Source: an uncultured Prevotellaceae bacterium (lineage in GTDB: Bacteria; Bacteroidota; Bacteroidia; Bacteroidales; Bacteroidaceae). Taken from it: a DNA stretch of 59,654 bases. The DNA lies in assembly GCA_900316445.1 (NCBI GenBank), contig ONCZ01000038.1, positions 1-59,654 on the forward strand. The letters are read 5' to 3'. Below the pieces are notes generated by a model that made no database searches, was not told where the DNA came from, and saw nothing but the letters and a program-made list of their open reading frames with translations. Made by a program: the position numbers and the translations under genes. Below, piece by piece: positions 16,341 to 33,235 of the stretch (positions are counted from its first letter, which is position 1; the number at the start of each line of letters is the position of its first letter).

Positions 16341-16400
16341 CTCAAAACTCGCGTATTATCCAGGAAACGGACAATGGGCTTCAAATACGCGAGTTTTGAG
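16341..16400. repeat. 17-base perfect inverted repeat after the thiamine operon
   Basis: CTCAAAACTCGCGTATT (16341-16357) and its exact complement (16384-16400) enclose 26 bases. It begins 17 bases after the kinase stop. It could fold as an RNA stem protecting or ending the operon transcript, but has no T-run. Confidence 0.7.
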
Positions 16401-19027: not shown

Positions 19028-20641
19028 ATGGCAAAGTTAGATTTGACACAGTATGGCATCACCGGTTCAACCGTGATTGCTCACAATCCGTCGTATGAGT
19101 ACCTCTATGAAGAGGAGACAAAGGCAGGCCTCGAGGGTTTCGACAAGGGCGTAAACACCGAGCTCAATGCCGTTAACGTGATGACTGGTATCTATACCGG
19201 CCGCTCGCCTAAGGACAAGTACATCGTGAAGGATGCACAGAGCGAGGACAAGGTATGGTGGACTTCTGAGGAATACAAGAACGACAACCACCCCATGAGC
19301 GAAGAGGTCTGGGCCAAGGTGAAGGAGATCGCCATCAAGGAGCTTTGCAATAAGAACCTGTATGTGATGGACGCTTTCTGCGGTGCCAACGAGGCTACCC
19401 GTCTGCGTGTCCGTTTCATCGTCGAGGTAGCCTGGCAGGCTCACTTCGTGAAGAACATGTTCATCCAGCCCACCGCTGAGGAACTGGAGAGCTTCGAGCC
19501 TAACTTCGTGATCTACAACGCCTCTAAGGCTAAGGTTGAGAACTACAAGGAGCTGGGTCTGAACTCAGAGACCTGTGTGGCCTTCAACACCTCTACCCGC
19601 GAGCAGTGCATCATCAACACCTGGTACGGTGGTGAGATGAAGAAGGGTATGTTCTCCATGATGAACTACTATCTGCCCCTGCAGGGTATCGCTTCTATGC
19701 ACTGCTCTGCCAACACCGATATGGAGGGTAAGAACACCGCTATCTTCTTCGGTCTCTCCGGTACTGGTAAGACCACGCTGTCAACCGATCCGAAGCGTCT
19801 GCTCATCGGTGACGACGAGCACGGCTGGGACGACGAGGGCGTGTTCAACTTCGAGGGCGGCTGCTATGCCAAGGTGATCAACCTCGACAAGGAGAGCGAG
19901 CCCGACATCTACAACGCTATCCGTCGCGACGCTCTGCTCGAGAACGTCACTGTCGACGAGACTGGTAAGATCGACTTCGCTGACAAGAGCGTGACTGAGA
20001 ACACCCGTGTCTCTTATCCTATCAACCACATCGAGAAGATTGCCCAGAAGGTGAACAAGAAGAGCGCCGGTCCCGAGGCCAAGAACGTCATCTTCCTCTC
20101 TGCCGATGCCTTCGGCGTGCTGCCTCCCGTATCTATCCTGACTCCGGAGCAGACGAAGTACTACTTCCTCTCTGGTTTCACAGCTAAGCTGGCTGGTACA
20201 GAGCGCGGTATCACAGAGCCCACCCCCACCTTCTCTGCTTGCTTCGGCCAGGCATTCCTCGAGCTGCACCCCACCAAGTATGCTGAGGAGCTCGTGAAGC
20301 GCATGGAGAAGAGCGGTGCCAAGGCTTATCTGGTGAACACCGGTTGGAACGGTACGGGCAAGCGTATCTCTATCAAGGATACCCGTGGTATCATCGACGC
20401 TATCCTCGGTGGTGACATCCTGAACGCTCCTACCAAAAAGATTCCTTACTTCGACTTCGAGGTTCCCACACAGCTCAACGGCGTGGCTTGGGGTATCCTC
20501 GATCCTCGCGACACCTATCAGAACCGCGACGAGTGGGAAGAGAAGGCTAAGGATCTTGCTGGCCGCTTCATCAAGAACTTCAAGAAGTACGAGGGCAACG
20601 AGGCTGGTAAGGCACTGGTCGCTGCAGGTCCGAAACTCTAA
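19028..20641 (+). CDS. pckA: Phosphoenolpyruvate carboxykinase (ATP)
   Basis: 537 residues, full family length. It interconverts oxaloacetate plus ATP with PEP plus CO2 plus ADP. In Bacteroidetes this step often runs toward oxaloacetate and succinate during sugar fermentation. Motifs: [12 protein letters not shown], the kinase-1 P-loop [14 protein letters not shown], the metal-binding [11 protein letters not shown], and the adenine-site region [17 protein letters not shown]. Codons are strongly biased (GAG, AAG, CTC, GGT), as in a highly expressed gene. Monocistronic, with its own promoter and a strong terminator at 20684. Confidence 0.97.
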
Positions 20642-20647
20642 GACCAC

Positions 20648-20671
20648 GAATTTCACGAATTTCACGAATTC
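20648..20671. repeat. Tandem word TTTCACGAA
   Basis: Three near-copies of the 9-base word CACGAATTT directly after the pckA stop. A second array with the word AATCCGTA/AATCCGTAA lies at 20729-20752 beyond the terminator. Part of the short-word pattern described in the findings. Confidence 0.6.
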
Positions 20672-20683
20672 AAATATTGGTTA

Positions 20684-20714
20684 AGAGGATTGCGATTTCG
20701 CAGTCCTCTTTTTT
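20684..20714 (+). terminator. Terminator of pckA
   Basis: GAGGATTGCG and CGCAGTCCTC pair around ATTT, followed by TTTTTTA. A strong intrinsic terminator form. Confidence 0.85.
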
Positions 20715-20822
20715 ATGTTCAAAATCCGTATAATCCGTAAAATCCGTAGGTTATATATATTAATAATCCGTTAATATAGCCAAATTATGACATATTTTCT
20801 TTAATTATAAGGTGAAAATGGC

Positions 20823-20851
20823 TTGTTTTTGCGGAATTGTGAGTAACTTTG
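20823..20851 (+). promoter_or_regulatory. Promoter of the envelope-assembly operon
   Basis: TTG (20823-20825), 18 bases, TAACTTTG (20844-20851). The first gene starts at 20888. Confidence 0.55.
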
Positions 20852-20887
20852 CAGCCGAATTGTGAGTAAACTGTATATCAGACAAGA

Positions 20888-22027
20888 ATGAACAAGCATA
20901 TTTCTGCACTCTTCGCCTTGATCGTGGGGGCGCTGATGATGACGTCGTGCCTCAAGTCAAACGACTCAAGTGAGATTGTTTACAATAACGACACAGCCAT
21001 CACAGCCTTCAGCCTGGCAGCCGTGAACCGCTATATCCATACCACTTCCAAGAGTGGTGCGGATTCTGTCTATAAGAGCGTCTACACCTATCCCGTCTCG
21101 TTTAGCATCGACCAATACAATCAGACGATCTACAACACAGACTCGCTCTATGCCGACTGTGACCTGAAGCACGTGCTGATCAGTGTGTCCACCAAGAACA
21201 GCGGCGTCGCCGTCATCAAGAGTCTGACGAGCGACACGCTGACGACCATTCTCTCGACAGACTCCCTCGACTTCACACAACCCCGTGAGGTGCGCGTCTA
21301 TTCGCAGGACGGCAAATCCTACCGCGCCTATAAGGTCACGATGAACAAGCATCAGGTGGCCACCGATCAGATCCTGTGGGAGAAGATGCCGGCAGACAGC
21401 TATCCCGTAGATACCGAGAAGGAGAAGTGGGAGCAGATCATAGAAGACAAAGGACTGGCCGTGTTCATCGGTGCCGGTACGAAGGAGGCATACGCCTACG
21501 ATATGGACGGACAGCTGGTGGTGAGCAAGGACGAGGGTGCCACTTGGGAACCCGACACGCTCGACGACAGCACCACGCTCCTGCCGAGACAGAGCATCGC
21601 CTTCGTGTCCTATCCCTTCGAAGCCAACAAGGACACTGACTATCAGTTGCTCGCCGGCGTCATCGAAGGAGAGGATATTGTCAGCGTCGTCTGGCGCAAG
21701 GTGGCAGAATATGCTGAAGGCAGCCAACCCGGGAAATGGTGCTTCGTGCCCGTTGAGGTGTTCAACCGCTACTCCCTCCCGGCTCCGGATAATAAAGACC
21801 TCAACCTCGTGTATTTCCACAAGAAGGTGCTGGCCATCAGCAGCGACTGGATCCGCGTCAGCATCGACGGCGGTATCACGTGGAAGGACTACGGCAAAAT
21901 GCCGCTTCCTGACGACAACCTGACGGCGGTGGAAGCCTGCACAGACGCCGAGGGTGCCCTCTGGATCAAGGAACTGAATACGGACAACGTATGGCGAGGA
22001 ATACTCGTGGAAGAGTGGAGTGAGTAG
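20888..22027 (+). CDS. DUF6242-type lipoprotein
   Basis: 379 residues. Lipoprotein signal peptide with lipobox MMTSC, so the mature protein starts at the cysteine near residue 21. Residues about 35-150 form a beta-sandwich-like region; 150-379 look like a beta-propeller-type repeat region (VSKDEGATWEPDT, VSIDGGITWKDYG are Asp-box-like). This matches my memory of the Bacteroidetes DUF6242 family; no biochemical role is known to me. First gene of a run of eight plus-strand genes that includes uppS, bamA and skp paralogues, which suggests an envelope role. The stop is 2 bases before the next start. Confidence 0.75.
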   Translation: MNKHISALFALIVGALMMTSCLKSNDSSEIVYNNDTAITAFSLAAVNRYIHTTSKSGADSVYKSVYTYPVSFSIDQYNQTIYNTDSLYADCDLKHVLISVSTKNSGVAVIKSLTSDTLTTILSTDSLDFTQPREVRVYSQDGKSYRAYKVTMNKHQVATDQILWEKMPADSYPVDTEKEKWEQIIEDKGLAVFIGAGTKEAYAYDMDGQLVVSKDEGATWEPDTLDDSTTLLPRQSIAFVSYPFEANKDTDYQLLAGVIEGEDIVSVVWRKVAEYAEGSQPGKWCFVPVEVFNRYSLPAPDNKDLNLVYFHKKVLAISSDWIRVSIDGGITWKDYGKMPLPDDNLTAVEACTDAEGALWIKELNTDNVWRGILVEEWSE

Positions 22028-22029
22028 TG

Positions 22030-22746
22030 ATGAGTGAAAGATATAGGATGAAAGAGAATGTGATTTGGGGACGGAGGATTCTGCCACTACTGATCACTTT
22101 TCACTTATCACTTTTCACTGCCGCCGCACAGGACGAGCCGGAGTACAAGATGGAGGCAGGAGCAGGCATCGGACTGGTGGCCTACACGGGCGACTTCAAC
22201 GGCAACCTGCTGAAAGGTATGCAGCCCTGGGGCACGCTGATAGGGAAATACCACCTGAGCCCGCGCTCAGCCATAGGCTTCAACCTGGGAATGGGAAAGA
22301 TCAAAGGCTCCAGCAGCAAGGCGGACACCTGGTACCCGATAGAAGAACCGTATGAGTTCGACAACACGCTCACGGAAGGCATCTTCAGGTATGAGTACAA
22401 TTTCTGGGCCTACGGAACAGGACAGGAATACCGGGGCGCGAAGCGACTGGCGCCGTTTGTGACCATCGGCCTGGGACTGGTACACCACAGTGGAGAAAAC
22501 AGCGGCATCACGATGAGCCTGCCCATCGGTGCCGGCGTCAAATATAAGATCGGGCAGCGACTGAACCTCATCGCAGAGTGGGTATTCAGGCTCACACCCT
22601 GTGACGAGCTCGACGGGAGGAAAGACCTCTACGGCATCAAGAGCAGCGGACTCTTCAAGAACACCGACTGCTACAGCGTGCTGCAACTGGCACTCACCTA
22701 CGACATCTGGATGAAGTGCAAAACGTGTCACAACGATAGAGACTGA
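22030..22746 (+). CDS. DUF6089-type outer-membrane beta-barrel protein
   Basis: 238 residues from ATG 22030; a GTG at 22027 overlaps the previous stop, and ATG 22048 would give the shortest signal peptide (MKENVIWGRRILPLL to TAAAQ). After cleavage the protein is a small predicted beta-barrel with alternating strands (MEAGAGIGLVAYTGDF, PFVTIGLGLVHHS, VLQLALTYDIW). In Bacteroidetes this family sits beside uppS and bamA, as here; its role is not established. The signal-peptide codons at 22096-22120 are CACTTTTCACTTATCACTTT, complementary to the start region (see findings). Confidence 0.75.
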   Translation: MSERYRMKENVIWGRRILPLLITFHLSLFTAAAQDEPEYKMEAGAGIGLVAYTGDFNGNLLKGMQPWGTLIGKYHLSPRSAIGFNLGMGKIKGSSSKADTWYPIEEPYEFDNTLTEGIFRYEYNFWAYGTGQEYRGAKRLAPFVTIGLGLVHHSGENSGITMSLPIGAGVKYKIGQRLNLIAEWVFRLTPCDELDGRKDLYGIKSSGLFKNTDCYSVLQLALTYDIWMKCKTCHNDRD

Positions 22747-22774
22747 AGAAGATTGAAAATTGAAAATTGAAGAT
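22747..22774. repeat. Tandem word GATTGAAAATTGAAAATTGA
   Basis: Three to four copies of a 9-base word between the DUF6089 gene and uppS. Example of the short-word junction repeats. Confidence 0.6.
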
Positions 22775-22782
22775 TTAGAGAT

Positions 22783-23532
22783 ATGAGCGAGCAATTGGAC
22801 ATGAACCGCATCCCTCAGCACATTGCCATCATCATGGACGGCAACGGCCGCTGGGCTACTGAGCGAGACCTGGATCGTACGTTTGGACACAAGGCAGGAC
22901 TCGACACTGTGAAGAGAATCACTGCAGAGTGTTCACGCCTAGGTGTGAAATACCTCACACTCTATACTTTCTCCACAGAGAACTGGAAACGGCCCGCATA
23001 CGAGATAGAAGCACTGATGGGACTCGTGCTCAACTTTTTGGAGATGGAACTCTTCAGCGACAATAATGTCAAGTTCAAAATGGTCGGTGACCTGAGGAGT
23101 CTGCCTGAGAGCGTCCAGAAGAAAATCCACTACATGGAAGACCTCACATCGAAATACGACGGCATGACGCTGGTAGTGGCACTAAGCTATTCCTCCAGAC
23201 TGGAGCTGACCAATGTCACACAAGAGATTGCGCAGGAGGTAGTGGACGGCAAACTTAAGATAGAAGACATCACCGAGGACAAGATTAACGATTATCTTTG
23301 GACAAACTTCATGCCTGATCCAGACCTTCTGATCCGTACTGGCGGTGAACTCCGCATCTCCAACTATCTGCTCTGGCAGATTGCCTACTCTGAGCTGTAT
23401 TTCTGCGACACCTATTGGCCAGACTTCATGGAGGAAGACCTCTACAAGGCTATTGCCGACTACCAGAACCGTCAGCGCCGTTTCGGCAAGACCGAGGCAC
23501 AGATAGAAGCGGAGGAAGAGGTGAAAAAGTGA
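22783..23532 (+). CDS. uppS: Undecaprenyl diphosphate synthase (isoprenyl transferase)
   Basis: 249 residues. It adds eight cis-isoprene units to farnesyl diphosphate, making the lipid carrier for peptidoglycan and surface glycans. Motifs: HIAIIMDGNGRWA (about 8-20), with the catalytic Asp; GHKAGLDTVKRI; TLYTFSTENWKRP; and PDLLIRTGGELRISNYLLWQIAYSELYF. Length is typical. It lies in the envelope operon directly before bamA, linking carrier-lipid supply with outer-membrane assembly genes. The final codons run into a GTGAAAAAGTGAAAAAGTGA array. Confidence 0.96.
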   Translation: MSEQLDMNRIPQHIAIIMDGNGRWATERDLDRTFGHKAGLDTVKRITAECSRLGVKYLTLYTFSTENWKRPAYEIEALMGLVLNFLEMELFSDNNVKFKMVGDLRSLPESVQKKIHYMEDLTSKYDGMTLVVALSYSSRLELTNVTQEIAQEVVDGKLKIEDITEDKINDYLWTNFMPDPDLLIRTGGELRISNYLLWQIAYSELYFCDTYWPDFMEEDLYKAIADYQNRQRRFGKTEAQIEAEEEVKK

Positions 23533-23650
23533 AAAAGTGAAAAGGTGAATCAAATAATGAAGATATATAATATAATAAGGTATAAGGCCAAAGGGGTATG
23601 GATGAAAGCGCTACTGCTTTCACTCTTTCACCTTTTCACCTTTTCACCTT
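23519..23650. repeat. Complementary short-word arrays around the bamA start
   Basis: GTGAAAAAGTGAAAAAGTGA and following bases (23519-23549) lie before the start; CTTTCACTCTTTCACCTTTT and following bases (23617-23650) lie in the signal-peptide codons. The two are near-exact reverse complements over about 30 bases, so an mRNA stem of about 28 pairs could enclose both candidate start codons (23557, 23602). Confidence 0.75.
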
Positions 23651-26271
23651 TAACGGCTCAGGACAAGATCGTCAACCCCGACATCTCCTATGCCGGTATG
23701 CCCCGCAACTGTGAGATCGGAGGCATCGCCGTCGAGGGTGTCGAAGGCTATGAGGACTATGTGCTGGCAGGACTCTCCGGACTCAGTGTCGGACAGATGA
23801 TTGATGTGCCCGGCTCCCAGATCACCGAGGCCGTGAAGCGCTACTGGCGCAATGGACTCTTCTCGAAGGTAAGCATCACCGCCGACTCCATCGTGGGCAG
23901 CAAGATCTACCTCTGTATCCACCTCGGCATGCGTCCCCGTATCAGCGGCATCAACTACCACGGCCTCAAGAAGGCGGAACGTGAGGATATGGAGACGAAG
24001 CTGGGCATGATGCGCGGCGGACAGCTGACACCGAACATGATCGACCGTGCGAAGATTCTGGCAAAGAAATATTTCGACGAGAAAGGTTACAAGAACGCCG
24101 AGATCGACATCGTGCAGCGCGACGACCCCGAGAAGCAGAATCAGGTGATCCTCGACGTCAATATCGACAAGAAGGCGAAGATGAAGGTTCACAAGCTCAT
24201 CTTCGACGGCAACGAGAAGCTGAAGGACAGCAAGATCAAAGGCTCGCTCTTCAGTAAAGGCGCCTTCGGAAAGATCCACGAGGCCGGCAAGTTCACGAAC
24301 ATATTCAAGTCGAAGAAGTTCACCGACGAGCGCTACCGTGAGGCCAAGCAGGCCCTGCTCGACAAATACAACGAGCTCGGCTTCCGCGATGCCACCATTC
24401 TGGAAGACTCCGTCTCGAACTACGACGACAAGCACGTAGATGTCTATGTGAAGATCGACGAAGGCGACAAATACTTCATCCGCAACATCACCTGGGTGGG
24501 CAACACCGTCGTGACGACAGACTACCTCAATGCCGTGCTCGAGATGAAGAAGGGCGACGTCTATAACCAGAAGCATATTAACAAGCGACTGAAGGAAGAT
24601 GAGGATGCTGCCGGTAACTGGTACTACAACAACGGTTACGTGTTCTCGAACATCGATCCCGTAGAGGTGAATATCGTCGGCGACTCCATCGACCTCGAGA
24701 TGCGCGTCACAGAAGGTCCGCAGGCCCATCTGAACCACGTCCGCATCTACGGTAACGACCGGCTATATGAAGAGGTGGTGCGCCGTGAACTCCATACGAA
24801 ACCCGGCGACCTGTTCAACAAGGAAGCCATCACCCGTTCCATCCGCGATATCGCCTCTATGGGTTTCTTCGATCCTGAGAAGGTGACGCCCGACATCCAG
24901 CCCAACGGTGAAGACGGAACGGTGGACATCAACTGGATGCTCGAACAGAAGAGCAACGACCAGCTGGAATTCTCACTGGGTTGGGGACAGACGGGTATCA
25001 TCGGTAAGATCGGTATCAAGTTCAACAACTTCTCCATCCGTAACCTCTTCGGCAAGAACAAGCTCCATCGCGGCATCCTGCCCTACGGCGACGGTGAGCA
25101 GCTGGGATTCAGCTTCCAGACCAACGGTTCATACTACAGCTCGCTGAGCGCGAACTACGGCACGAACTGGTTCGGCGGCAAGCGTCCTAACAGCCTCAAC
25201 TTCGGCGTGTTCTACTCCAAGCAGTCGGATATCTCCAGCTACTACCGCAACAACGCGTTCTACAACAACTACGCGCTCTACAACTCCGGTTACGGTATGT
25301 ACAACACGGGTTACTACAACTACGATTCGATGCTCGACGATGACAAGACGATGACCGTCTTCGGTGCCTCCGTAGGATGGGGTAAGCGTCTGCGCTGGCC
25401 TGACGACTTCTTCCAGCTGTCGCTCTCACTGGGCTACACCCGTTATATGCTGCGCGACTGGAGCTACTTCTATATCCACAACGGTAACTGTAATAACATC
25501 AACCTGGGTGTGACGCTGTCACGTGTCTCTACCGACAACCAGCTGTTCCCGCGCAGAGGTTCCGAGATGATTGCCTCCGTCACCGCTACTCCACCCTGGT
25601 CGCTCTTCGACAACAAGGACTATGCGCATCTGGCCAAGAACAGCAACTCGGCCACCTATGAGGCAGAGCTGCAGGATGTCTATCGCTGGATCGAGTACCA
25701 CAAGTGGAAGTTCAAGCTGCGTTCGTTCACGGCCCTCACCGGCGGTCAGAAGTGCTTCGTGCTGATGACACGTGCGGAATTTGGACTGTTAGGCAGCTAC
25801 AATGATAACAAGCGCTCACCGTTCGAGACCTTCTACGTCGGTGGTGACGGTATGAGCGGCTACTCTTACGGCTACTCCGAGGAGACTATCGGACTGCGCG
25901 GCTACGAGAACGGTTCAATCTCTTACTCCTCTGCCTACGAGGAAATGATGAACGGCCGCAGCATCTCGTCATACAACTCTTACGCCTACGACCGCTTCAC
26001 GCTCGAGCTCCGCTATCCGTTTATGCTAGGCAACACCACCATCTACGGCCTCGGCTTCCTCGAGGGCGGTAATGCCTGGGCGAAGGCTAAGGACTTCAAC
26101 CCCTTCAAGATGAAGCGCTCTGCCGGTCTCGGTGTGCGTATCTTCCTCCCGATGGTGGGTCTGATGGGTATCGACTGGGCCTACGGCTTCGACGAGGTCT
26201 ATACCAACCAGGCCGGTGCCACGAAGAAAGGCGGAAGCAACTTCCACTTCATCCTCGGACAAGAATTCTAA
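23557..26271 (+). CDS. bamA: Outer-membrane protein assembly factor BamA
   Basis: 904 residues from ATG 23557. GTG 23545 is an upstream option, and ATG 23602 (MKALLLSLFHLFTFSPLTAQ) gives the best signal peptide and may be the true start. It inserts beta-barrel proteins into the outer membrane. Five POTRA-like domains occupy about 30-440 (ISGINYHGLKKAEREDM, GDKYFIRNITWVGN, AHLNHVRIYGNDRLYEEVV) and the C-terminal half is the 16-strand barrel ending HFILGQEF. A Tyr/Asn/Ser-rich stretch (about residues 560-600, YYRNNAFYNNYALYNSGYGM) is a probable extracellular loop and looks lineage-specific. The gene is followed by three Skp paralogues, its usual chaperone partners. Confidence 0.95.
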   Translation: MKIYNIIRYKAKGVWMKALLLSLFHLFTFSPLTAQDKIVNPDISYAGMPRNCEIGGIAVEGVEGYEDYVLAGLSGLSVGQMIDVPGSQITEAVKRYWRNGLFSKVSITADSIVGSKIYLCIHLGMRPRISGINYHGLKKAEREDMETKLGMMRGGQLTPNMIDRAKILAKKYFDEKGYKNAEIDIVQRDDPEKQNQVILDVNIDKKAKMKVHKLIFDGNEKLKDSKIKGSLFSKGAFGKIHEAGKFTNIFKSKKFTDERYREAKQALLDKYNELGFRDATILEDSVSNYDDKHVDVYVKIDEGDKYFIRNITWVGNTVVTTDYLNAVLEMKKGDVYNQKHINKRLKEDEDAAGNWYYNNGYVFSNIDPVEVNIVGDSIDLEMRVTEGPQAHLNHVRIYGNDRLYEEVVRRELHTKPGDLFNKEAITRSIRDIASMGFFDPEKVTPDIQPNGEDGTVDINWMLEQKSNDQLEFSLGWGQTGIIGKIGIKFNNFSIRNLFGKNKLHRGILPYGDGEQLGFSFQTNGSYYSSLSANYGTNWFGGKRPNSLNFGVFYSKQSDISSYYRNNAFYNNYALYNSGYGMYNTGYYNYDSMLDDDKTMTVFGASVGWGKRLRWPDDFFQLSLSLGYTRYMLRDWSYFYIHNGNCNNINLGVTLSRVSTDNQLFPRRGSEMIASVTATPPWSLFDNKDYAHLAKNSNSATYEAELQDVYRWIEYHKWKFKLRSFTALTGGQKCFVLMTRAEFGLLGSYNDNKRSPFETFYVGGDGMSGYSYGYSEETIGLRGYENGSISYSSAYEEMMNGRSISSYNSYAYDRFTLELRYPFMLGNTTIYGLGFLEGGNAWAKAKDFNPFKMKRSAGLGVRIFLPMVGLMGIDWAYGFDEVYTNQAGATKKGGSNFHFILGQEF

Positions 26272-26285
26272 GCGGTCTGCGGCCT

Positions 26286-26410
26286 GAATGATGAATGATG
26301 AATGATAAATTAAAAATATGAGGAAATGAAAACGGTAATGAAACTATTTGCGAACAACAGACTAATGACGATGATAGCTTTATCATTTATCATTTGTCAT
26401 TTATCATTTA
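26286..26410. repeat. Complementary short-word arrays around the first skp start
   Basis: GAATGATGAATGATGAATGA and following bases (26286-26311) lie before the start; TTTATCATTTATCATTTGTC and following bases (26379-26410) encode the signal-peptide core. The arrays are reverse complements with few mismatches and enclose the start codon at 26326. Confidence 0.75.
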
Positions 26411-26880
26411 GCCCTGCAAGGGCGCAGAAGTTCGCGCTGGTGGATATGGAATATATCCTGAAGAACATCCCTGCCTATGAGCGTGCCAACGAGCAGCTGA
26501 ACCAGACCTCGAAGCAGTGGCAGGCAGAAGTCGATGCCCTCACCACCGAGGCTCAGACACTCTACAAGAACTACCAGAACGAGGTGGTCTTCCTCTCCAA
26601 GGAGCAGAAGAAGGCCAAGCAGGACGCCATCGTGGAGAAGGAGAAGGAGGCTGCCGACCTGAAGAAGAAATACTTCGGTCCCGAGGGAGAGCTCTTCAAG
26701 AAGCGCAACGCACTCATGTCACCCATCCAGGACGAGATCTACAACGCCATCAAGGACATCTCCGACACCCGTGGCTACCAGCTCGTGCTCGACCGTGCCA
26801 GCGACACCGGCATCATCTTCGGTTCCCCGAAGATCGACATCTCTTCCGAGGTGCTCTCAAAATTAGGATATTCCAATTAA
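26326..26880 (+). CDS. OmpH/Skp-family periplasmic chaperone, paralogue 1
   Basis: 184 residues; signal peptide ending SPARAQ (about residue 34). The mature part is a Skp-type beta core (KFALVDMEYILKNIPAYERA) with a long charged coiled coil (about 55-135, rich in Lys, Glu, Gln) and the returning strand GYQLVLDRASDTGIIF. Skp binds unfolded outer-membrane proteins in the periplasm and carries them to BamA, whose gene is just upstream. First of three tandem paralogues. A GC-rich palindromic element separates it from the second. Confidence 0.9.
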   Translation: MKTVMKLFANNRLMTMIALSFIICHLSFSPARAQKFALVDMEYILKNIPAYERANEQLNQTSKQWQAEVDALTTEAQTLYKNYQNEVVFLSKEQKKAKQDAIVEKEKEAADLKKKYFGPEGELFKKRNALMSPIQDEIYNAIKDISDTRGYQLVLDRASDTGIIFGSPKIDISSEVLSKLGYSN

Positions 26881-26891
26881 CCGCCTCAATT

Positions 26892-26926
26892 CCCCTCCTA
26901 AGTTAGGAGGGGCTAGGGGTGGTCTG
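26892..26926 (+). repeat. GC-rich palindromic element, copy 3
   Basis: CCCCTCCTAAGTTAGGAGGG then GCTAGGGGTGGTCTG, placed 11 bases after the stop of skp paralogue 1. Its stem could slow or end transcription or protect the upstream message. Confidence 0.85.
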
Positions 26927-26975
26927 AACAATGGCTAATGATAATAAGCATATAATAATTTAACTGATAAGAAAA

Positions 26976-27482
26976 ATGAAAAAATTAATCGTTTGCGCTA
27001 TTTGCGCTATCTGCGGTTTCACCGCAGCCAATGCACAGGCCAAGTTCGGTCATGTGAACACTCAGGAGATCATTCAGGCTATGCCCGAATACGCCACAGC
27101 TAAGGCCGAGATCGACAAGCTGACATCTCAGTATGAAGCTGACCTCAAGGCTATGCAGGACGAGCTTCAGAAGAAGGCTGACGCTTTCGACAAGGAGCAG
27201 GCAACCCTTCCCGACAACATCAAGCAGCGCCGTCAGACCGAGCTGCAGGAGATGTACCAGAAGATCCAGCAGAGCTATCAGGACAACCAGCAGGCTCTCC
27301 AGAAGGCCTCTTCTGAGAAGATGCAGGCTATCACCGCCAAGGTGCTCGACGCCATCAAGGCCGTTGGCCAGGCAGGCGACTTCGTGATCATCAACGAGAT
27401 CAACGCCGGTATCCCCTACATCAGCACCACACTCTCTACCGATGTGACCGCTCAGGTGAAGACCAAGCTTGGTCTGAAGTAA
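26976..27482 (+). CDS. OmpH/Skp-family periplasmic chaperone, paralogue 2
   Basis: 168 residues. The signal peptide has the tandem codon word TTTGCGCTA (residues VCAICAICG) and ends ANAQ. Beta core KFGHVNTQEIIQAMPEYATA; coiled coil about 40-120 very rich in Gln, Lys and Glu; closing strand FVIINEINAGIPYIS. Same role as its neighbours. Codon use is strongly biased, suggesting this is the most highly expressed of the three. The stop is 1 base before the next ATG. Confidence 0.9.
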   Translation: MKKLIVCAICAICGFTAANAQAKFGHVNTQEIIQAMPEYATAKAEIDKLTSQYEADLKAMQDELQKKADAFDKEQATLPDNIKQRRQTELQEMYQKIQQSYQDNQQALQKASSEKMQAITAKVLDAIKAVGQAGDFVIINEINAGIPYISTTLSTDVTAQVKTKLGLK

Positions 27483-27483
27483 G

Positions 27484-27993
27484 ATGAAGCGATTAGCAAG
27501 CATCATATTATTCATAGGTGTTTTCCTGGGCATCTCTGCTCAGGAAAACACTTTCCGTTTCGGTTACCTCAGCTATGAGGGTGCTATCCAGTCGATGCCG
27601 GAATATGCGCTTGTGCAGCAGCAGATGAAGGAGCTACAGGAGCAGTATCAGGCAGAGACACTGCGCGTGGAAGACGAGTTCAACCGCAAGTACGAGGATT
27701 TCCTCGACGGTCAGCGTGATTTCCCCCGCACCATCCTCCAGAAGCGCCAGACGGAGCTGCAGGAGCTGATGGAGAAGAACATCCAGTTTAAGGAGCAAGG
27801 CCGTCAGGAGCTGGCCGATGCCGAGCGCGAGGCGATGGCACCGCTCCGCATCCGTCTGATCGAACTGCTGAGTACGATAGGACGGGAGAAAGGCTTTGCC
27901 TTCATCTACGACACAGACACGAAGGCGCTGCCCTTCCTGAACATCGACTTCGGCGAAGACATCAACCAACTTGTACAGGATGCTCTCAAGTAG
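27484..27993 (+). CDS. OmpH/Skp-family periplasmic chaperone, paralogue 3
   Basis: 169 residues, signal peptide ending GISAQ. FRFGYLSYEGAIQSMPEYAL is the Skp core strand and helix; the coiled coil contains RDFPRTILQKRQTELQELM, alike to paralogue 2 (NIKQRRQTELQEMY), so the two arose by duplication. Closing segment GFAFIYDTDTKALPFLN. Its 3' end overlaps murI by 14 bases, so the murI start lies within this gene. Confidence 0.88.
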   Translation: MKRLASIILFIGVFLGISAQENTFRFGYLSYEGAIQSMPEYALVQQQMKELQEQYQAETLRVEDEFNRKYEDFLDGQRDFPRTILQKRQTELQELMEKNIQFKEQGRQELADAEREAMAPLRIRLIELLSTIGREKGFAFIYDTDTKALPFLNIDFGEDINQLVQDALK

Positions 27994-28813
27994 TGCCGGC
28001 CCCATTGGCGTCTTCGACAGCGGCTATGGCGGTCTCACGATTCTGAATAGCATCCGCCAGCAGCTTCCCCAATACGATTATCTCTATCTGGGCGATAATG
28101 CCCGTGCGCCCTACGGTCCGAGGAGTTTCGACGTGGTGTATGAGTTTACGCGCCAGGCGGTGTTAAGGCTTTTCGAGATGGGCTGTCATCTCGTGATCTT
28201 AGGTTGTAATACGGCATCAGCCAAGGCCCTGCGCTCCATCCAGCAGAATGACCTGCCCCAGTGGGATCCTGAGCGCCGTGTGCTGGGCGTGATACGTCCG
28301 ACGGCAGAAGTGATAGGCGAGCTGACAAAATCGCGCCACGTGGGCGTTTTAGCGACCGAGGGCACCATCAAAAGCGAGAGTTATAACCTCGAGATCCAGA
28401 AGTTGCATCCTGACGTGAAAGTGAGCGGTGTGGCGTGTCCGTTCTGGGTGCCGCTGGTGGAGTATAATGAGGCGGACTCTCCGGGAGCGGACTATTTCGT
28501 GAAGAAACGCATAGACCAGATTATGGCGAAGGATCCGGAGATAGATGCCATTATCCTGGGGTGTACGCATTATCCGCTGCTGATGCCGAAGATATTGAAG
28601 TATCTGCCGGAGGGGGTAAAGATTGTTTCGCAGGGGGAGTACGTGGCCAGCAGTTTGAAGGCGTATTTGGAAAGACATATAGAAATAGAACGGAAGTGCG
28701 CCAAGCAGGGTTCTGTAAATTATCTGACGACGGAGAATCCTGAGAAGTTTAAGGAATCGGCACAGATATTTCTGAAAGAGGAGATTCAAGTAAAGAATAT
28801 TACGTTAGGGTGA
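27980..28813 (+). CDS. murI: Glutamate racemase
   Basis: 277 residues from ATG 27980 (MLSSSAGPIGVFDSGYGGLT). A TTG at 27971 would add three residues. It converts L- to D-glutamate for peptidoglycan. Catalytic cysteines lie in LGCNTASAKAL (about residue 79) and ILGCTHYPLL (about 196), and the N-terminal GVFDSGYGG substrate loop is intact. Last gene of the envelope operon, translationally coupled to the third skp paralogue. Downstream are palindromic element copy 4 and a bidirectional terminator shared with convergent gyrB. Confidence 0.95.
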   Translation: MLSSSAGPIGVFDSGYGGLTILNSIRQQLPQYDYLYLGDNARAPYGPRSFDVVYEFTRQAVLRLFEMGCHLVILGCNTASAKALRSIQQNDLPQWDPERRVLGVIRPTAEVIGELTKSRHVGVLATEGTIKSESYNLEIQKLHPDVKVSGVACPFWVPLVEYNEADSPGADYFVKKRIDQIMAKDPEIDAIILGCTHYPLLMPKILKYLPEGVKIVSQGEYVASSLKAYLERHIEIERKCAKQGSVNYLTTENPEKFKESAQIFLKEEIQVKNITLG

Positions 28814-28840
28814 GGCAGAGAGGCGGAGCTTGAGGCGGAT

Positions 28841-28874
28841 CAGACCACCCCTAACCCCTCCTACTCAGGAGGGG
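28841..28874 (-). repeat. GC-rich palindromic element, copy 4
   Basis: Minus-strand reading CCCCTCCTGAGTAGGAGGGG then TTAGGGGTGGTCTG, continuing ATCCGCC as does the copy in ftsL. It lies between murI and gyrB. Confidence 0.85.
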
Positions 28875-28887
28875 AAGCTGCGCACAG

Positions 28888-28919
28888 AAAAGGGCGACAC
28901 GAGTGATGTCGCCCCTTTT
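28888..28919. terminator. Bidirectional terminator between murI and gyrB
   Basis: AAAAGGGCGACA pairs with TGTCGCCCCTTTT (one bulge) around a short loop. A-run and T-run on the two sides fit termination of both convergent genes. Confidence 0.75.
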
Positions 28920-28939
28920 AGTGTGGTAGTGTGGGGAGA

Positions 28940-30916
28940 TTACGCGTCGATGTTGGCGTAGGTGGCGTTCTTCTCGATGAACTCACGGCGGGGCTCGACA
29001 TCGTCACCCATGAGCATAGAGAAGATCTCGTCAGCCTCGGCAGCATTCTCGATGCTCACCTGCTTCAACAGACGGTTCTCGGGATTCATGGTCGTCTCCC
29101 ACAGCTGCTCGGGGTTCATCTCACCCAGACCTTTGTAGCGCTGGGTGTGGAGGCCCTTGTCGTCGCCGTTGCCTGCCACATACTTGTCGATGAAGGCCTG
29201 GCGCTGCTGCTCGGTGTAGCAATATTCCGACACCTTCTTATAGGTACACTTGTAGAGCGGCGGTGTAGCGATGTAGAGGTGTCCGCCCTGGATCACCTGC
29301 GGCATGAAGCGGTAGAAGAGCGTCATGATCAGCGTGTCGATGTGCGAGCCATCGACGTCGGCATCGGTCATGATGATGATCTTGTTGTAACGCAGCTTGT
29401 CGATGTTTGCCTCACGGTCTCCTTCGCCCTCGACGCCGAAGCGGACGCCGATGGACTGGATGATGTTCATCACCGACTCCGACTCGAACACGCGATGCCA
29501 CTGTACCTTCTCGACATTCAGGATCTTACCACGAAGCGGCAGGATGGCCTGGAAGTGACGGTCACGACCAGACTTGGCAGAACCACCGGCGGAATCACCC
29601 TCGACGAGGAAGATCTCACACTGCTGGGGATCCTTGTTGGAGCAGTCGGCGAGCTTGCCGGGCAGTCCGCCACCCGTCATCGGGTTCTTACGCTGCACGC
29701 TCTCACGGGCCTTGCGGGCGGCTATACGGGCGGTAGCAGCGAGCACCACCTTGTCGCAGATCATCTTGGCCTCCTTCGGATGCTCCTCCAGATAGTTGGC
29801 GAGGGCCTCACCCACGGCCTGCTGTACGGCACCGGCGACCTCAGAGTTGCCGAGCTTCGTCTTCGTCTGTCCCTCGAACTGCGGCTCGGCGACCTTGATG
29901 CTAATCACTGCTGTAAGGCCTTCGCGGAAGTCTTCGGGTGCAATCTCGATCTTCGCCTTTTCGATCTGCTTGGAGATCTGCGGGTCGCTGTCGGCATATT
30001 TCTTTAAGGTACGCGTGAGAGCCGCACGGAAGCCGGCCAGATGGGTACCACCCTCAATGGTGTTGATATTATTTACATAGGAATGGATGTTTTCCGAGTA
30101 GTCGGTGTTGTACATCACGGCCACCTCGATGGGGATGCCCTGCTTCTCGGTCTTCAGGTAGATGACATCATCGACGAGGTGCGTACGGTGACGGTCCACA
30201 TAGCGCACGAACTCCTTCAGTCCGTCCTTGGCGTGGAACACCTCGGGCTCACGCAGCTTGCCGTCCTCATCGGGACGCAGGTCGGTGAGTGTGATGGTGA
30301 TACCGGCATTCAGATAGGCCAGCTCACGCATACGACGGGCGATGATGTCGTATTTATATTCCGTCGTGGTGAAGATGGAGCCGTCGGGCCAGAACTGCTG
30401 GCGCGTACCAGTCTTGTCGGTATCACCCACAATCTTCACGTCGTAGAGAGGCTTACCCTTCTCGTATTCCTGCTGGTAGATGTGGCCGTTGCGGAACACC
30501 TGCGACAGCATGTGGGTACTCAGGGCGTTCACACAGCTGACACCCACACCGTGGAGACCACCGGAGACCTTATAGGAGCCCTTGTCGAACTTACCACCGG
30601 CATGCAGCACGGTCATCACGACCTCGAGGGCGCTCTTGTGCATCTTCTCGTGTTCATCTACAGGGATACCACGACCGTTATCGAGCACCGTGATCGAGTT
30701 GTCCTCGTTGATGGTGACCTCGATATGGGTACAGTAGCCGGCCATCGCCTCGTCGATAGAGTTGTCGACGGTTTCGTTGACCAGATGGTGCAATCCCTTT
30801 TCACTGATATCGCCGATATACATGGCGGGGCGCTTACGGACGGCCTCAAGGCCCTCAAGCACCTGAATGTTACTCGCGGAATAATTTTCTTCTTGAATCG
30901 GTTGTTCTTCTGTCAT
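28940..30916 (-). CDS. gyrB: DNA gyrase subunit B
   Basis: 658 residues from the ATG at 30916 (MTEEQPIQEENYSASNIQVLEG). The frame stays open to 31000, but the -7 promoter box lies at 30990-30997 and the extra codons are a reading of a palindromic repeat, so the downstream ATG is right. With GyrA it introduces negative supercoils at ATP cost. GHKL ATPase motifs: VDNSIDEAMAGY, VLDNGRGIPV, GGLHGVGVSCVNAL. Toprim motifs: VEGDSAGGSAKSGRD, MTDADVDGSHI. C-terminal QRYKGLGEMNPEQLWETTM. Length is normal for the short Bacteroidetes form. Confidence 0.97.
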   Translation of the reverse strand: MTEEQPIQEENYSASNIQVLEGLEAVRKRPAMYIGDISEKGLHHLVNETVDNSIDEAMAGYCTHIEVTINEDNSITVLDNGRGIPVDEHEKMHKSALEVVMTVLHAGGKFDKGSYKVSGGLHGVGVSCVNALSTHMLSQVFRNGHIYQQEYEKGKPLYDVKIVGDTDKTGTRQQFWPDGSIFTTTEYKYDIIARRMRELAYLNAGITITLTDLRPDEDGKLREPEVFHAKDGLKEFVRYVDRHRTHLVDDVIYLKTEKQGIPIEVAVMYNTDYSENIHSYVNNINTIEGGTHLAGFRAALTRTLKKYADSDPQISKQIEKAKIEIAPEDFREGLTAVISIKVAEPQFEGQTKTKLGNSEVAGAVQQAVGEALANYLEEHPKEAKMICDKVVLAATARIAARKARESVQRKNPMTGGGLPGKLADCSNKDPQQCEIFLVEGDSAGGSAKSGRDRHFQAILPLRGKILNVEKVQWHRVFESESVMNIIQSIGVRFGVEGEGDREANIDKLRYNKIIIMTDADVDGSHIDTLIMTLFYRFMPQVIQGGHLYIATPPLYKCTYKKVSEYCYTEQQRQAFIDKYVAGNGDDKGLHTQRYKGLGEMNPEQLWETTMNPENRLLKQVSIENAAEADEIFSMLMGDDVEPRREFIEKNATYANIDA

Positions 30917-30930
30917 TTTTTCTTCTTTTT

Positions 30931-30962
30931 GACCCCCTCTTAACTCCCCCTTCAAAGGGGGA
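30931..30962 (-). repeat. GC-rich palindromic element, copy 5, in the gyrB leader
   Basis: Minus-strand reading TCCCCCTTTGAAGGGGGA followed by GTTAAGAGGGGGTC, closest to copy 1. It lies between the gyrB promoter and the start codon, so the transcript leader carries a strong stem about 15 bases upstream of the ATG. Confidence 0.7.
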
Positions 30963-30989
30963 GAAGTCAGGGGGGATGGATTTTGCGTG

Positions 30990-30997
30990 CAAAGGTA
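30990..30997 (-). promoter_or_regulatory. -7 box of gyrB
   Basis: Minus-strand TACCTTTG (30997-30990), 74 bases before the ATG. The -33 region has no clear TTG. Confidence 0.5.
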
Positions 30998-31040
30998 CAA
31001 AAAATAATTCAGATAAACATAGTTTATCTGCTAAAAAAAC

Positions 31041-31074
31041 ACAAAAAAGAAACCGCAACCCTTTCGGATTGCGG
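31041..31074 (-). terminator. Terminator of rpsT
   Basis: On the minus strand CCGCAA (31074-31069) pairs with TTGCGG (31058-31053), then TTTCTTTTTTG. It follows the rpsT stop by about 20 bases. Confidence 0.8.
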
Positions 31075-31096
31075 CGCTCATCTATACAACGATAAA

Positions 31097-31348
31097 TTAA
31101 AGCTTGTTGATGTGCTGTGCGAGGCTCGACTTGAGGTTGGCTGCCTTGTTCTTGTGGATGATGTTCGTCTTGGCGAGCTTGTCAAGCATCTTCTGCACCT
31201 TCGGATACAGGGCTGTTGCTTCTTCCTTGTCGGTCATAGCACGCAGTTTGCGCACAGCGTTACGCATTGTCTTTGCGTAATAGCGGTTGTGAAGCGCCTT
31301 CTTTTTGTCCTGGCGGATTCTCTTCACAGATGATTTGTGGTTTGCCAT
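31097..31348 (-). CDS. rpsT: 30S ribosomal protein S20
   Basis: 83 residues, [20 protein letters not shown], the standard S20 start, with high Lys/Arg content and three helices that bind the 5' domain of 16S rRNA. Length fits the family. It lies downstream of the tRNA-Glu-like sequence on the same strand; the 138 bases between hold GC-rich hairpins that may be an S20 leader structure. Confidence 0.97.
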
Positions 31349-31399
31349 TTTTTAATGTTTAATTATAAATGTTACTAAAGCTTGTGGGTCTTACGTCAC

Positions 31400-31470
31400 T
31401 ACAACCGCCCTGGGCAGCCCTTTCGGGCTTCCGCCACCTTATCCCGACACGTCGGTAGCACTTGGCTGTG
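31400..31470 (-). other. GC-rich structured leader candidate upstream of rpsT
   Basis: Stem AGCCC-GAAA-GGGCT with a GNRA tetraloop (31429-31416 on the minus strand), CCGAC-GT-GTCGG (31455-31444), and CTGCCCAGGGCGG, all within 70 bases between the tRNA-Glu-like sequence and rpsT. It could be a leader used for S20 autoregulation or a tRNA-spacer processing structure; I do not recognise a known RNA family. Confidence 0.35.
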
Positions 31471-31486
31471 CAGATGACGGATTTAA

Positions 31487-31560
31487 TGTAGTCCCTAGGA
31501 GAGTCGAACTCCTCTTTAGAGAATGAAAATCTCTCGTCCTAACCGATAGACGCGGGTGCA
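31487..31560 (-). tRNA. tRNA-Glu (TTC) with defective acceptor stem, probable tRNA pseudogene
   Basis: Minus strand: D arm GTCTATCGGTTAGGAC, anticodon arm AGAGA-TTTTCAT-TCTCT with anticodon TTC (Glu), T arm AGGAG-TTCGACT-CTCCT, then AGGGACT and ACA. The 3' acceptor strand AGGGACT requires about AGTCCCT before the D arm, but the sequence there is TTTGCACCCGC, which pairs at only two or three positions. The -7 promoter box TACCTTTG runs almost straight into the D arm, as if about nine bases had been deleted. All other arms are intact. Likely nonfunctional unless a 5' strand is supplied in some other way. Confidence 0.75.
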
Positions 31561-31574
31561 AAGGTACTACTATT

Positions 31575-31620
31575 TTTTGAACTTTGAACTTTGAACTTTA
31601 AACTTTATGATTACTTTTAA
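31575..31620. repeat. Tandem word TTTGAACTTTGAACTTTATGATTACTTT, copy 1 of 4
   Basis: TTGAACTTTGAACTTTGAAC then TTTAAACTTTATGATTACTT. The same word order, ending in TTTATGATTACTTT or close to it, recurs at 42228, 43740 and 44549 between minus-strand genes. A different array (AATGTTCAATGTTTAATG) follows at 31645-31682 before recO. Confidence 0.7.
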
Positions 31621-31684
31621 GGATTATTAACCTTTCTGCGCTAAAAATGTTCAATGTTTAATGTTCAATGTTCAATGTTTATTG

Positions 31685-31692
31685 TACCTTTG
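31685..31692 (+). promoter_or_regulatory. -7 box of recO, implies a near-leaderless message
   Basis: TACCTTTG at 31685-31692; the recO ATG is at 31700. Transcription usually begins about 5-7 bases after this box, so little or no leader is expected. No clear -33 TTG is present. Confidence 0.5.
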
Positions 31693-31699
31693 CAGTCGT

Positions 31700-32422
31700 A
31701 TGTTGACGAAGACTCAGGCTATAGTCCTCCATTCCATCAAGTACGGGGAGACGAGAATGATCGTGGATATGTTCACCAAGGCGCACGGACGACTGTCGTT
31801 CATGGTGAACATCCCGAAGTCGTCGAAGGCGCGTGTGAAAAAACAGCTCTTCCAGCCGTTGACGATTCTGGAGGCGGAGGTAGATGTCCGACCGAAGGCC
31901 CAGTTGCAGAAGCTGCACGACGTGCGCCTCGCATCGCCTTTTACCACCATTCCTTTCCATCCCCACAAACTTGCCATCTCGCTCTTCGTGGCCGAGTTCC
32001 TCTATTACGCCCTAAGATCCGAACAGCGTAACGAGCCGCTCTACGACTATATCTCGAGCAGCATCCAATGGCTCGACAGTCAGACGGACCGCTTTGCCAA
32101 CTTCCACCTCGTATTCCTGATGCGCCTCAGCCGCTTCTTAGGCTTCTACCCCAACCTCGACGATTACCTGCCGGGCGACTATTTCGACCTCCGCGAGAGT
32201 ATTTTCTGTGCCACACCCCCACTCCATCGCGACGTGCTCCACCCAGCCGAGGCAGAGAAGCTCCAATTGATGATGCGTATGGACTATCCCACCATGCATC
32301 TCTTCCGCCTCTCTCACCTCGACCGTGACCGTCTGCTCGAAGTAGCCGTCATCTACTACCGTCTGCACCTCCCCAATTTCCCCGAGCTTAAATCATTAGC
32401 CGTTCTGCAACAGCTGTTCTGA
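31700..32422 (+). CDS. recO: DNA repair protein RecO
   Basis: 240 residues from ATG 31700 (MLTKTQAIVLHSIKYGETRMIV). The frame extends 13 codons upstream, but those codons are the AATGTTCAATG array and the promoter box. RecO loads RecA with RecR at single-stranded gaps. The N-terminal OB fold contains TKTQAIVLHSIKYGE and LSFMVNIPKSSKA; the C-terminal part is helical. The zinc-binding cysteines found in some RecO proteins are not evident, as is usual in Bacteroidetes. Length is typical. Monocistronic. Confidence 0.9.
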   Translation: MLTKTQAIVLHSIKYGETRMIVDMFTKAHGRLSFMVNIPKSSKARVKKQLFQPLTILEAEVDVRPKAQLQKLHDVRLASPFTTIPFHPHKLAISLFVAEFLYYALRSEQRNEPLYDYISSSIQWLDSQTDRFANFHLVFLMRLSRFLGFYPNLDDYLPGDYFDLRESIFCATPPLHRDVLHPAEAEKLQLMMRMDYPTMHLFRLSHLDRDRLLEVAVIYYRLHLPNFPELKSLAVLQQLF

Positions 32423-32617
32423 TTTTAATTTTATAATTTTATAATGGATCGCAAGAATTTTCTCAGAAAATCCCCCAAATTTTACTAACCACGCTTGTTG
32501 TCAAGAGCATGAAGACAGATTTATATGTGTAACCTATGCGAGTCGTAATTATTAAATATGTTTACAAAATCTCTATTCACTCTCTTTTCTCGGTGAAACA
32601 AGGCAGTAAACTGGGAC

Positions 32618-32683
32618 TTTCCTTAGGGTAAACCTCCAGTTTCCTTAGCCTAAACCATCACTTTCCTTAGTCCAAAATCCGAG
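32618..32683 (+). repeat. 22-base-period tandem repeat, locus B (three units)
   Basis: Units begin ACTTTCCTTAGGGTAAACCT, AGTTTCCTTAGCCTAAACCA and ACTTTCCTTAGTCCAAAATC, each 22 bases. Same family as 16530-16596 but opposite orientation relative to the following serpin gene. Confidence 0.75.
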
Positions 32684-32776
32684 TCTTCATAAATTACTGA
32701 TTGTCAGGCATATACAAAATCTACAAAAATTAATATGGTGGTTGCGAAAAATGTTGACACAAACAGATTTGTTTCC

Positions 32777-33235
32777 GTTACAGTTACAGTTGTTACAGTT
32801 TAAAATCTGACAATTATGACCGCTCGGCTTTGCCGCTTGCTACCGCAGGGACGCAAGAAATGACAGTTATGTTTTTAGCATCCCAAACCAGCAGTCATTA
32901 CACATTACATTGCAATGATCCAAATTTTTAAAAACATGAGAAATAGTAACTTAATAATTATTATATATTATAATATATAATAATTTATAATATATATAAG
33001 TACTTATGTAACTTTTTCAATTGATGTCGTACAATCTCAAAATTGATTTGATTACAAAGTAATGTAATGTTCTTACTTGGACATGTGGATTTCGTGTGGG
33101 CCAGTGAATCCTAAGCGCAAAATTTGGAACTGTCATTTGTCATAATTGTCATTTTTCTAATTTCTTCAGCTTGAACACATCAATCACAGCCCAAAGATAA
33201 TCCCAAAATTAACTGTAACAACTGTAACTGTAACG
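32777..33235. repeat. Nested inverted repeats around an AT palindrome
   Basis: Outer arms of 24 bases, 32777-32800 (starts GTTACAGTTACAG) and 33212-33235, are perfect reverse complements. Inner arms TGACAATTATGAC (32808-32820) and GTCATAATTGTCA (33139-33151) are also exact. Near the centre is a perfect 30-base AT palindrome (32956-32985). The 39-base dispersed element copy 2 is inside. No open frame of note is present. In all, 32423-33508 contains no gene that I can support. Confidence 0.75.
32821..32859 (+). repeat. 39-base dispersed element, copy 2
   Basis: One mismatch against 16736-16774, same orientation relative to the downstream serpin gene. Confidence 0.8.

Follow-up and report, generated by a model that had tools for sequence, protein, structure and literature searches.

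Inverted pairs of tandem-word arrays at the starts of exported-protein genes belong to a genome-wide class of fold-back structures in a Prevotellaceae bacterium

The window analysed here is a stretch of 59,654 nt from an uncultured Prevotellaceae bacterium (ONCZ01000038.1), numbered C90 among the contigs of its 4.04 Mb draft genome. Pfam matches place the genes for DUF6242, DUF6089, uppS, bamA and two skp/OmpH proteins in this order and in one direction. The closest BamA relatives in named genomes are 67-95% identical over the 80 retained loci, and come mostly from uncultured Prevotella or Prevotellaceae, many of them from rumen-named samples, plus Xylanibacter ruminicola. The start regions of DUF6089, bamA and the first skp gene are each flanked by an array of short words upstream and by its inverted counterpart downstream. 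The three genes use three different words, each matching its own partner. All three are members of a class of fold-back structures found genome-wide, in which two inverted arms of about 20-35 nt, each comprising about 3-4 tandem words of 7-9 nt, surround a loop.

All arms and loops at these starts are given on the + strand. The purine-rich upstream arm of DUF6089 (22015-22040) holds the stop codon of the preceding DUF6242 gene (22025-22027) and pairs, in the minimum-energy fold, with the downstream arm at 22098-22124. The latter begins TTTTCACTTATCACTTTTCACT and codes for part of the signal-peptide core LITFHLSLFTAAAQ; a tandem array of period 7 lies on this side at 22094-22119. The DUF6089 loop (22041-22097) contains the candidate start ATG 22048. 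At bamA, the upstream arm (23517-23549) is an 8-mer array of GTGAAAAA that holds the uppS stop (23530-23532), and the downstream arm (23617-23652) is an 8-mer array of TTTCACCT that codes for the BamA signal-peptide core LLLSLFHLFTFSPL. The loop between them (23550-23616) harbors the start ATG 23557 and the motif AATAAGG. The upstream arm of the first skp/ompH gene (26285-26311), a 7-mer array of TGAATGA, starts 14 nt past the last base of bamA; its loop (26312-26378) contains the start ATG 26326, and its downstream arm (26379-26410), a 7-mer array of TTTATCA, codes for ALSFIICHLSF.

The initial annotation had reported complementary tandem words at these three genes, with a constant layout and words that differ from gene to gene. 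Both observations hold: inverted array pairs occur at all three loci, and the six words quoted are all present, namely TGATGAGTGAAAG (22028-22040) and CTTTTCACTTATCA (22097-22110) at DUF6089, GTGAAAAAGTGAAAAAGTGA (23521-23540) and CTTTCACCTTTTCACC (23625-23640) at bamA, and GATGAATGATGAATGATAAA (26290-26309) and TTTATCATTTATCATTTGTC (26379-26398) at skp. It had also taken each start codon to be enclosed by a possible mRNA stem, which is the case for bamA and skp, with the start in the loop, and is uncertain for DUF6089, where GTG 22027 and ATG 22030 lie in the upstream arm and only ATG 22048 lies in the loop. As proposed there, the start regions were folded as RNA and compared with 200 dinucleotide shuffles. 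The folds lie about 5 standard deviations below the shuffles (z of -5.05 for DUF6089, -4.67 and -5.29 for two cuts of bamA, and -5.31 for skp), none of the 200 shuffles being as stable, and the outer stems contain 25, 29 and 32 pairs, respectively. A window-wide ungapped scan for close inverted repeats returned three matches at a score of at least 13, including bamA (19) and skp (15); the same scan returned 3 direct, 0 reversed and 0 complement matches. DUF6089 is the weakest pair: it is not in the scan list, scores 12 by local alignment and scores 8 in the orthologue set described below. A known RNA element was also considered and rejected. Rfam models run on positions 20500-33400 gave only a tRNA above the gathering score, and on the bamA hairpin they gave two plant-type microRNA models, far below the cut-offs.

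Orthologues were compared in collections with one genome per species, and controls consisted of direct, reversed and complement matches and of swaps of flanks or arms. The 110 bamA loci (30 + 80) were reduced to 103 distinct 5' regions by merging only those with no difference over 390 nt. Matched arms at a score of 12 are present in 37 of these, where swaps between species give 6.9, and at a score of 20 in 18, where swaps give 1.1; direct and reversed controls yield none at a score of 14. Collapsing near-identical regions to 98 leaves the result at 36 against 6.9. The remaining 66 of the 103 have no matched pair at a score of 12. Arrays lie on both sides of the bamA start in 32 of the 103 (17.8 such co-occurrences expected), a set that was picked by tandem structure alone, blind to complementarity and using no word classes. 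Within these 32 rows the mean arm score is 18.4 within species versus 8.8 after swapping (p at most 5e-5), and the two arrays have an equal period in 29 rows versus 16.3 expected.

The bamA words include GTGAAAAA, GTAAAAAG, AGTGAAN, AATGAAG, AGTGATA, AAATGAT and AATGTAC. Both arms share a word class in 31 of the 32 rows and differ in one, a count that is less independent than the class-free comparison of arm scores, as the classes were defined after viewing the arrays; they also overlook some arrays, such as the one upstream in L012 and the repeat downstream in L033. Placed on one BamA tree, the 31 rows require no fewer than 15 changes of the matched class. A test on phylogenetically independent pairs for the GTAAAAAG word gave 7.7 to 0 in the same direction (median p 0.008). 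Inside the GTAAAAAG class, which comprises 12 species and thus offers low power, no compensation was seen at the level of bases, with matched arms scoring 18.3 and swapped arms 18.6, and duplex energies of -39.3 versus -38.6 kcal/mol (p 0.17). The bamA loop is alignable in species that have no arrays and appears native. Its AATAAGG motif is in the forward orientation in 42 of the 103 regions, reversed in none and not found in 61, and an inverton, i.e. DNA inversion of the segment, was rejected on these counts. At L033 a non-tandem 37-nt repeat of the CCCCTCC type occupies both arm positions; the constant is therefore the inverted layout and not the tandem word. In the genome concerned, G062 (L033 and L281), the signal-peptide regions of BamA and Skp are both coded by this GC-rich repeat, with an inverted copy upstream of the start at each gene.

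For skp, 29 of 30 loci were kept, L279 being too short, and 4 of the 29 have a pair at a score of 12 where swaps give 0.1. For DUF6089 the count is 2 of 30 against 0.21. Most of the relatives examined have no pair at these two genes, and where a pair is present its word is usually different. The initial annotation had named orthologues lacking complementarity as grounds against its proposal. Many relatives do lack the pair, and the stem is therefore dispensable across the genus. Within genes, a GGGGGTAC pair occupies one variable loop of a helicase gene in this genome, where 24 relatives carry other repeats or none. An RND pump gene here contains an AGTGAAG pair; of the 19 relatives compared, some carry a single arm (L240 and L244), L251 carries a CCCCTCC pair, and the rest show different arrays or a plain loop.

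Three samples of the genome were used: 611 kb chosen regardless of arrays, 1.41 Mb, and 1.466 Mb including the window. In the first, an inverted partner lies no more than 200 bp away, at a score of 16, for 23 of 83 arrays; the direct, reversed and complement controls give none, and swapping the flanks gives 0.67. When the same 611 kb were scanned for any inverted repeat, not just arrays, the result was 38 inverted versus 17 direct, 0 reversed and 0 complement matches. Equal numbers of pairs in controls, which the initial annotation would have taken as a refutation, did not occur: in the 1.41 Mb sample, 88 of 411 arrays, representing 208 canonical words, have an inverted partner at a score of 14, against 9 direct and 2 reversed. 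The distinct pairs number 53, with median arms of 29, 23 and 21 nt for periods 7, 8 and 9. Their polarity is not universal, 31 being purine-first, 12 pyrimidine-first and 10 mixed. Unrelated genes carry pairs in their interior, and other pairs lie in intergenic stretches or flank AT palindromes. By context, partners were found in the 1.41 Mb sample for 5 of 17 signal-peptide, 14 of 136 intragenic, 4 of 45 gene-edge and 65 of 213 intergenic arrays. Since the rates for periods 7-8 are 5/16 at signal peptides versus 24/116 between genes, pairing is not a property of signal peptides.

Single words were followed further afield. The exact AGTGAAN pair is present in 71 of 249 genomes of the genus, and its backward-read control, which amounts to the opposite polarity, in 0 of 249; there are 1 to 48 pattern matches per genome, overlapping registers being counted separately. 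A search at the level of the order found the pattern in 2 of 295 genomes, with places shown in this genome (G000) and in G369; it used one exact word and says little on other words. The TTTCACC pattern gave 173 matches versus 1 in its control. A mini-hairpin where the pyrimidine-rich arm ends on its outer side looked recurrent by eye but was discarded, as it occurs at 14 of 205 such ends versus 15 of 205 at the other end, and in 6.9% of 4000 random 18-mers, i.e. with no enrichment.

The skp word TTTATCA gave 59 pattern matches in this genome versus 10 for the reversed control. Reading these through yielded 16 arrays that form 8 pairs, with the purine-rich arm always first. All 8, judged by eye, lie at the 5' end of a gene with the pyrimidine-rich arm coding for a signal-peptide-like core; an in-frame ATG is in the loop for 7, and for the pair on C80 the nearest ATG is in the upstream arm. 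The four further signal peptides with this word that were read (on C31, C65 and two on C120) have no close upstream match. In the 1.466 Mb sample, a crude rule picked 23 pyrimidine-rich arrays that code for likely signal-peptide cores, five of them from the window, including the three genes described above. With a score cut of 11, set after the scores had been viewed, 9 of the 23 have a matching upstream partner where swaps within the genome give 3.2 (permutation p 0.0004); the scores fall into two groups, 11-27 and 4-8. Leaving out the window genes gives 6 of 18 versus 2.9 (p 0.006). The pairs thus exceed chance at four levels: the genome sample, the swap between species, the swap within the genome, and the opposite polarity in the genus.

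The position of the upstream gene was recorded for 16 paired signal-peptide genes, 9 from the swap set and 7 from the skp-word pairs. In all 16, an open frame of 150 codons or more on the same strand ends upstream; its stop lies -13 to +15 nt from the start of the arm in 14, and at +61 and +97 in the other two. Such a frame ends within 260 nt upstream of 11 of the 15 unpaired signal-peptide arrays. In the window, two of the three upstream stops fall inside the arm. Coupling to the upstream gene is plausible because ribosomes stopping there would open the arm.

An explanation has to account for the observed pairs, the matching of their words, the repeated switching, the native-looking bamA loop and the occurrence of the layout in other contexts. 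The one we favour, with about an even chance of being correct, is that the arrays arise and are rewritten by fold-back copying of DNA, i.e. template switching combined with slippage. Among recognised types of mutation, template switching both makes stems and re-matches existing ones, as outlined by Monttinen and Loytynoja 2022 (PMC8794818). At the site, single-stranded DNA would fold back, and the nascent strand would switch template across the stem and copy one arm into the other, homogenising the quasi-palindrome. Slippage within the stem would create and alter the tandem word, and a new word in one arm would soon lead to the other being overwritten with its reverse complement, the loop being retained. 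This reading would give four observations one cause: the arms match locally, no particular word is required, a start codon may be present in the layout or absent from it, and switching leaves few intermediates; mismatched intermediates appear rare because arms of differing class were found in only one of the 32 rows. Copying predicts a match after the event followed by decay, and the GTAAAAAG class, which at its low power gives no sign of upkeep at the level of bases, fits copying of whole words. Purine-rich arms may be tolerated in the A-rich leader between genes, and their pyrimidine-rich complement would code for a passable hydrophobic core, to be retained as part of a signal peptide at the start of exported proteins. 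That all three proteins are exported, to which the initial annotation drew attention, can follow from composition, as only the pyrimidine-rich strand codes for a hydrophobic stretch. The RNA stem would arise as a side effect, possibly with some added coupling to the upstream gene. Of the two meanings offered initially, inverted copying of a short array, which would leave the pairs as its trace, is thus the favoured one, given the concerted word switches, the native-looking bamA loop and the noncoding and mid-gene layouts.

Several points weigh against fold-back copying. Among the bamA orthologues, 19 of the 103 had a word class in just one arm (another 52 had none in either), and the independent-pairs test for AGTGAAN was not significant (6.2 to 1.4, median p 0.125). 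The loop of the RND pair in this genome is not native. Identical words recur at many loci, and the GGGGGTAC, GAAACGAAT and AATTTGCTACCGC families look dispersed and insertion-like, with a partly conserved loop or core. Local slippage and fold-back do not explain words that are common to many loci, so that dispersal of arrays between loci, perhaps by element-like units, would have to be added. The copying step, its direction and the slippage are inferred from comparisons between species and between loci of one genome, and transfer of the whole uppS-bamA junction between species could bring in both arms at once.

Mobile palindromic elements of the REPIN, MITE or foldback type, in which an enzyme acting in trans would move the pair or its single arms, insertions at gene starts being retained for the signal peptide that one arm makes, would account for the dispersed word families (TTTATCA, TTTCACC and AGTGAAN, the latter with a fixed polarity across its 71 genomes). 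They would also account for the many GGGGGTAC copies with a related core, some in open frames, for the different repeat families that the helicase and RND sites hold by species, and for an inverted pair of 11-mer arrays that adjoins a Y1 transposase gene. This origin nevertheless seems unlikely, for the bamA loop looks native, the loops of the TTTATCA pairs look mutually unrelated by eye, and the sole Y1 match, from a search confined to this transposase family, sits between 36-nt ends of its own that hold no word arrays. Incidental matching has the least to recommend it: words from a small genome-specific dictionary would be inserted independently, A-rich ones being kept in leaders and T-rich ones in signal peptides. 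G040 and G062 each carry the same repeat in bamA and skp, and composition constraints could fix the polarity at gene starts, but the swaps within the genome, with and without the window, exceed such matching, the three window genes use three words each matched to its own partner, and noncoding pairs are under no such constraint. We regard it as highly improbable.

Translational control of export, the other meaning offered initially, is possible but not needed. It would act as a gate, the mRNA stem hiding the purine-rich leader until ribosomes ending the upstream gene open the arm and let the exported-protein gene start. The fold z of about -5, the upstream stops near the arm start in 14 of 16 paired genes and those inside the arm in the window are as such a gate would have them; a short intergenic gap would put the arm near the stop anyway, and most unpaired arrays (11/15) have a comparable upstream neighbour. 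Pairs show no clear excess at signal peptides relative to arrays between genes, they also occur mid-gene, single arms exist, the majority of bamA orthologues have no matched pair at a score of 12, and there is no compensation within a word class (n=12, low power). Such a gate is therefore an unlikely origin, and regulation is a possible later use. Fold-back copying could also be replaced by a dedicated array-writing activity in these Prevotella-like bacteria, which would place a short tandem word to one side of a loop, add the reverse complement on the opposite side and use a fresh word at each event, the host harvesting the pyrimidine-rich products as new signal-peptide cores; this is unlikely.

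The nearest known systems share some features with these pairs and differ in others. Quasi-palindromes made by template switching (PMC8794818) likewise include nearby reverse-complement copies, perfect stems arising in one event and existing stems that are re-matched. In the present case, arms are the reverse complement of nearby sequence beyond chance and change together while the spacer is kept (31/32 of the same class, at least 15 changes). Those described in PMC8794818 concern RNA genes, whereas the unit copied here would be an array of 7-9 nt words, repeatedly swapped, at many coding and noncoding sites. Coding palindromes of Nematomorpha mitochondria (PMC6649704) are also inverted repeats within protein-coding genes; both of their arms, up to 284 bp, code for conserved protein regions. 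Here, one arm is in the leader and the other in the signal peptide, or both are in variable loops. Drosophila foldback transposons, which have inverted repeats composed of short tandem subrepeats, are eukaryotic and much larger. The arms differ from REP and REPIN elements in being word arrays that change gene by gene. REP repeats with their RAYT transposases (PMC3733652) are similar in forming inverted dimers 20-100 bp apart, mostly intergenic and some intragenic. The GTAG/CGTC tag was found in none of the four bamA and skp arms; one GTAG lies in the upstream arm of DUF6089, and in the AGTGAAG family outside the window a GTAG is found inside GCGGTAGC. As to movement as a unit with its loop, the loop looks native at bamA, is not so at RND, and is partly conserved in some families. 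The BrickBuilt MITE of Porphyromonas gingivalis (PMC4596501) also combines tandem repeats with small inverted ends in Bacteroidales, but its repeat is 23 nt, it is always intergenic, and its tandem part lies between the ends and not as inverted arms. The TAACTGA heptamer arrays of Beggiatoaceae, cyanobacteria and some Bacteroidetes (PMC4679880) are 7-mers near start codons with a suggested translational role; they differ in using one fixed word in direct repeats. The Prevotella repeat PINSR (PMC4755523), at 188 bp and described without terminal inverted repeats, was set aside as different. A literature search, with subscription papers mostly outside it, returned no account of inverted tandem-word pairs in Bacteroidales, which is weak evidence of novelty.

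If the arms are copied in inverted form, a single event could turn a noncoding leader array into a signal-peptide core and at the same time create an mRNA stem of about 30 bp, linking a mutational process to the birth of part of a protein. The bamA locus, with its class changes across 31 matched species, would then be a natural record of the rate, direction and enzymes of copying. The pairs also caution against reading every conspicuous RNA stem at a gene start as regulatory.

Pairs around AT palindromes are represented in the window by a noncoding structure at 32776-33235 with the arm word GTTACA (no strand assigned). Its left arm CGTTACAGTTACAGTTGTTACAGTT (32776-32800) is a perfect 25-nt inverted match to the right arm AACTGTAACAACTGTAACTGTAACG (33211-33235), and an AT-rich palindromic centre lies at 32955-32986. 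In 1.466 Mb, 9 of 10 such centres have matching inverted flanks at a score of 20, where swaps give 0.8. The words mostly differ by copy, although a few are related (ATGACA twice, AGTCAT twice). In five copies the central portions align with one another better than composition shuffles do, a lenient standard for AT-rich palindromes and the only one applied.

Copies of the GGGGGTAC family are found at L055:18216-18301, at L069:3167-3244 and in most of L139-L156, some of them in frame in genes. Their core resembles CGAGAATAC...GTAATCTCG, and the family resembles Rickettsia palindromic elements. A crude classifier, used for illustration only, labelled 29 loci as 13 core, 2 core plus start, 8 neither and 6 signal-peptide-like. 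A second, well-conserved palindromic intergenic element of about 100-113 bp begins GAAACGAAT, with copies at L069:18741-18853, L060:11126-11228, L073:19571-19669, L304:2036-2130 and L312:5051-5153. The sole Y1 transposase match in the genome (PF01797) is located between inverted 36-nt ends (L237:1077-1112 and 1974-2009) that carry GGGGTCAGGCACC and are unrelated to the words of the window. Mobilisation of the arrays by a RAYT is not supported by this match. Just outside these ends, at L237:2093-2394, is the inverted pair of 11-mer arrays (AATGACATA). Elsewhere in the window, the inverted-repeat scan located a perfect 17-nt inverted repeat, CTCAAAACTCGCGTATT, at 16341-16400, with a 26-nt loop and no word array. 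Finally, two 9-mer arrays, CACGAATTT (20645-20670) and AAAATCCGT (20723-20748), lie 3' of a gene ending at 20641 and have the look of an intergenic 9-mer pair whose inverted match has decayed.

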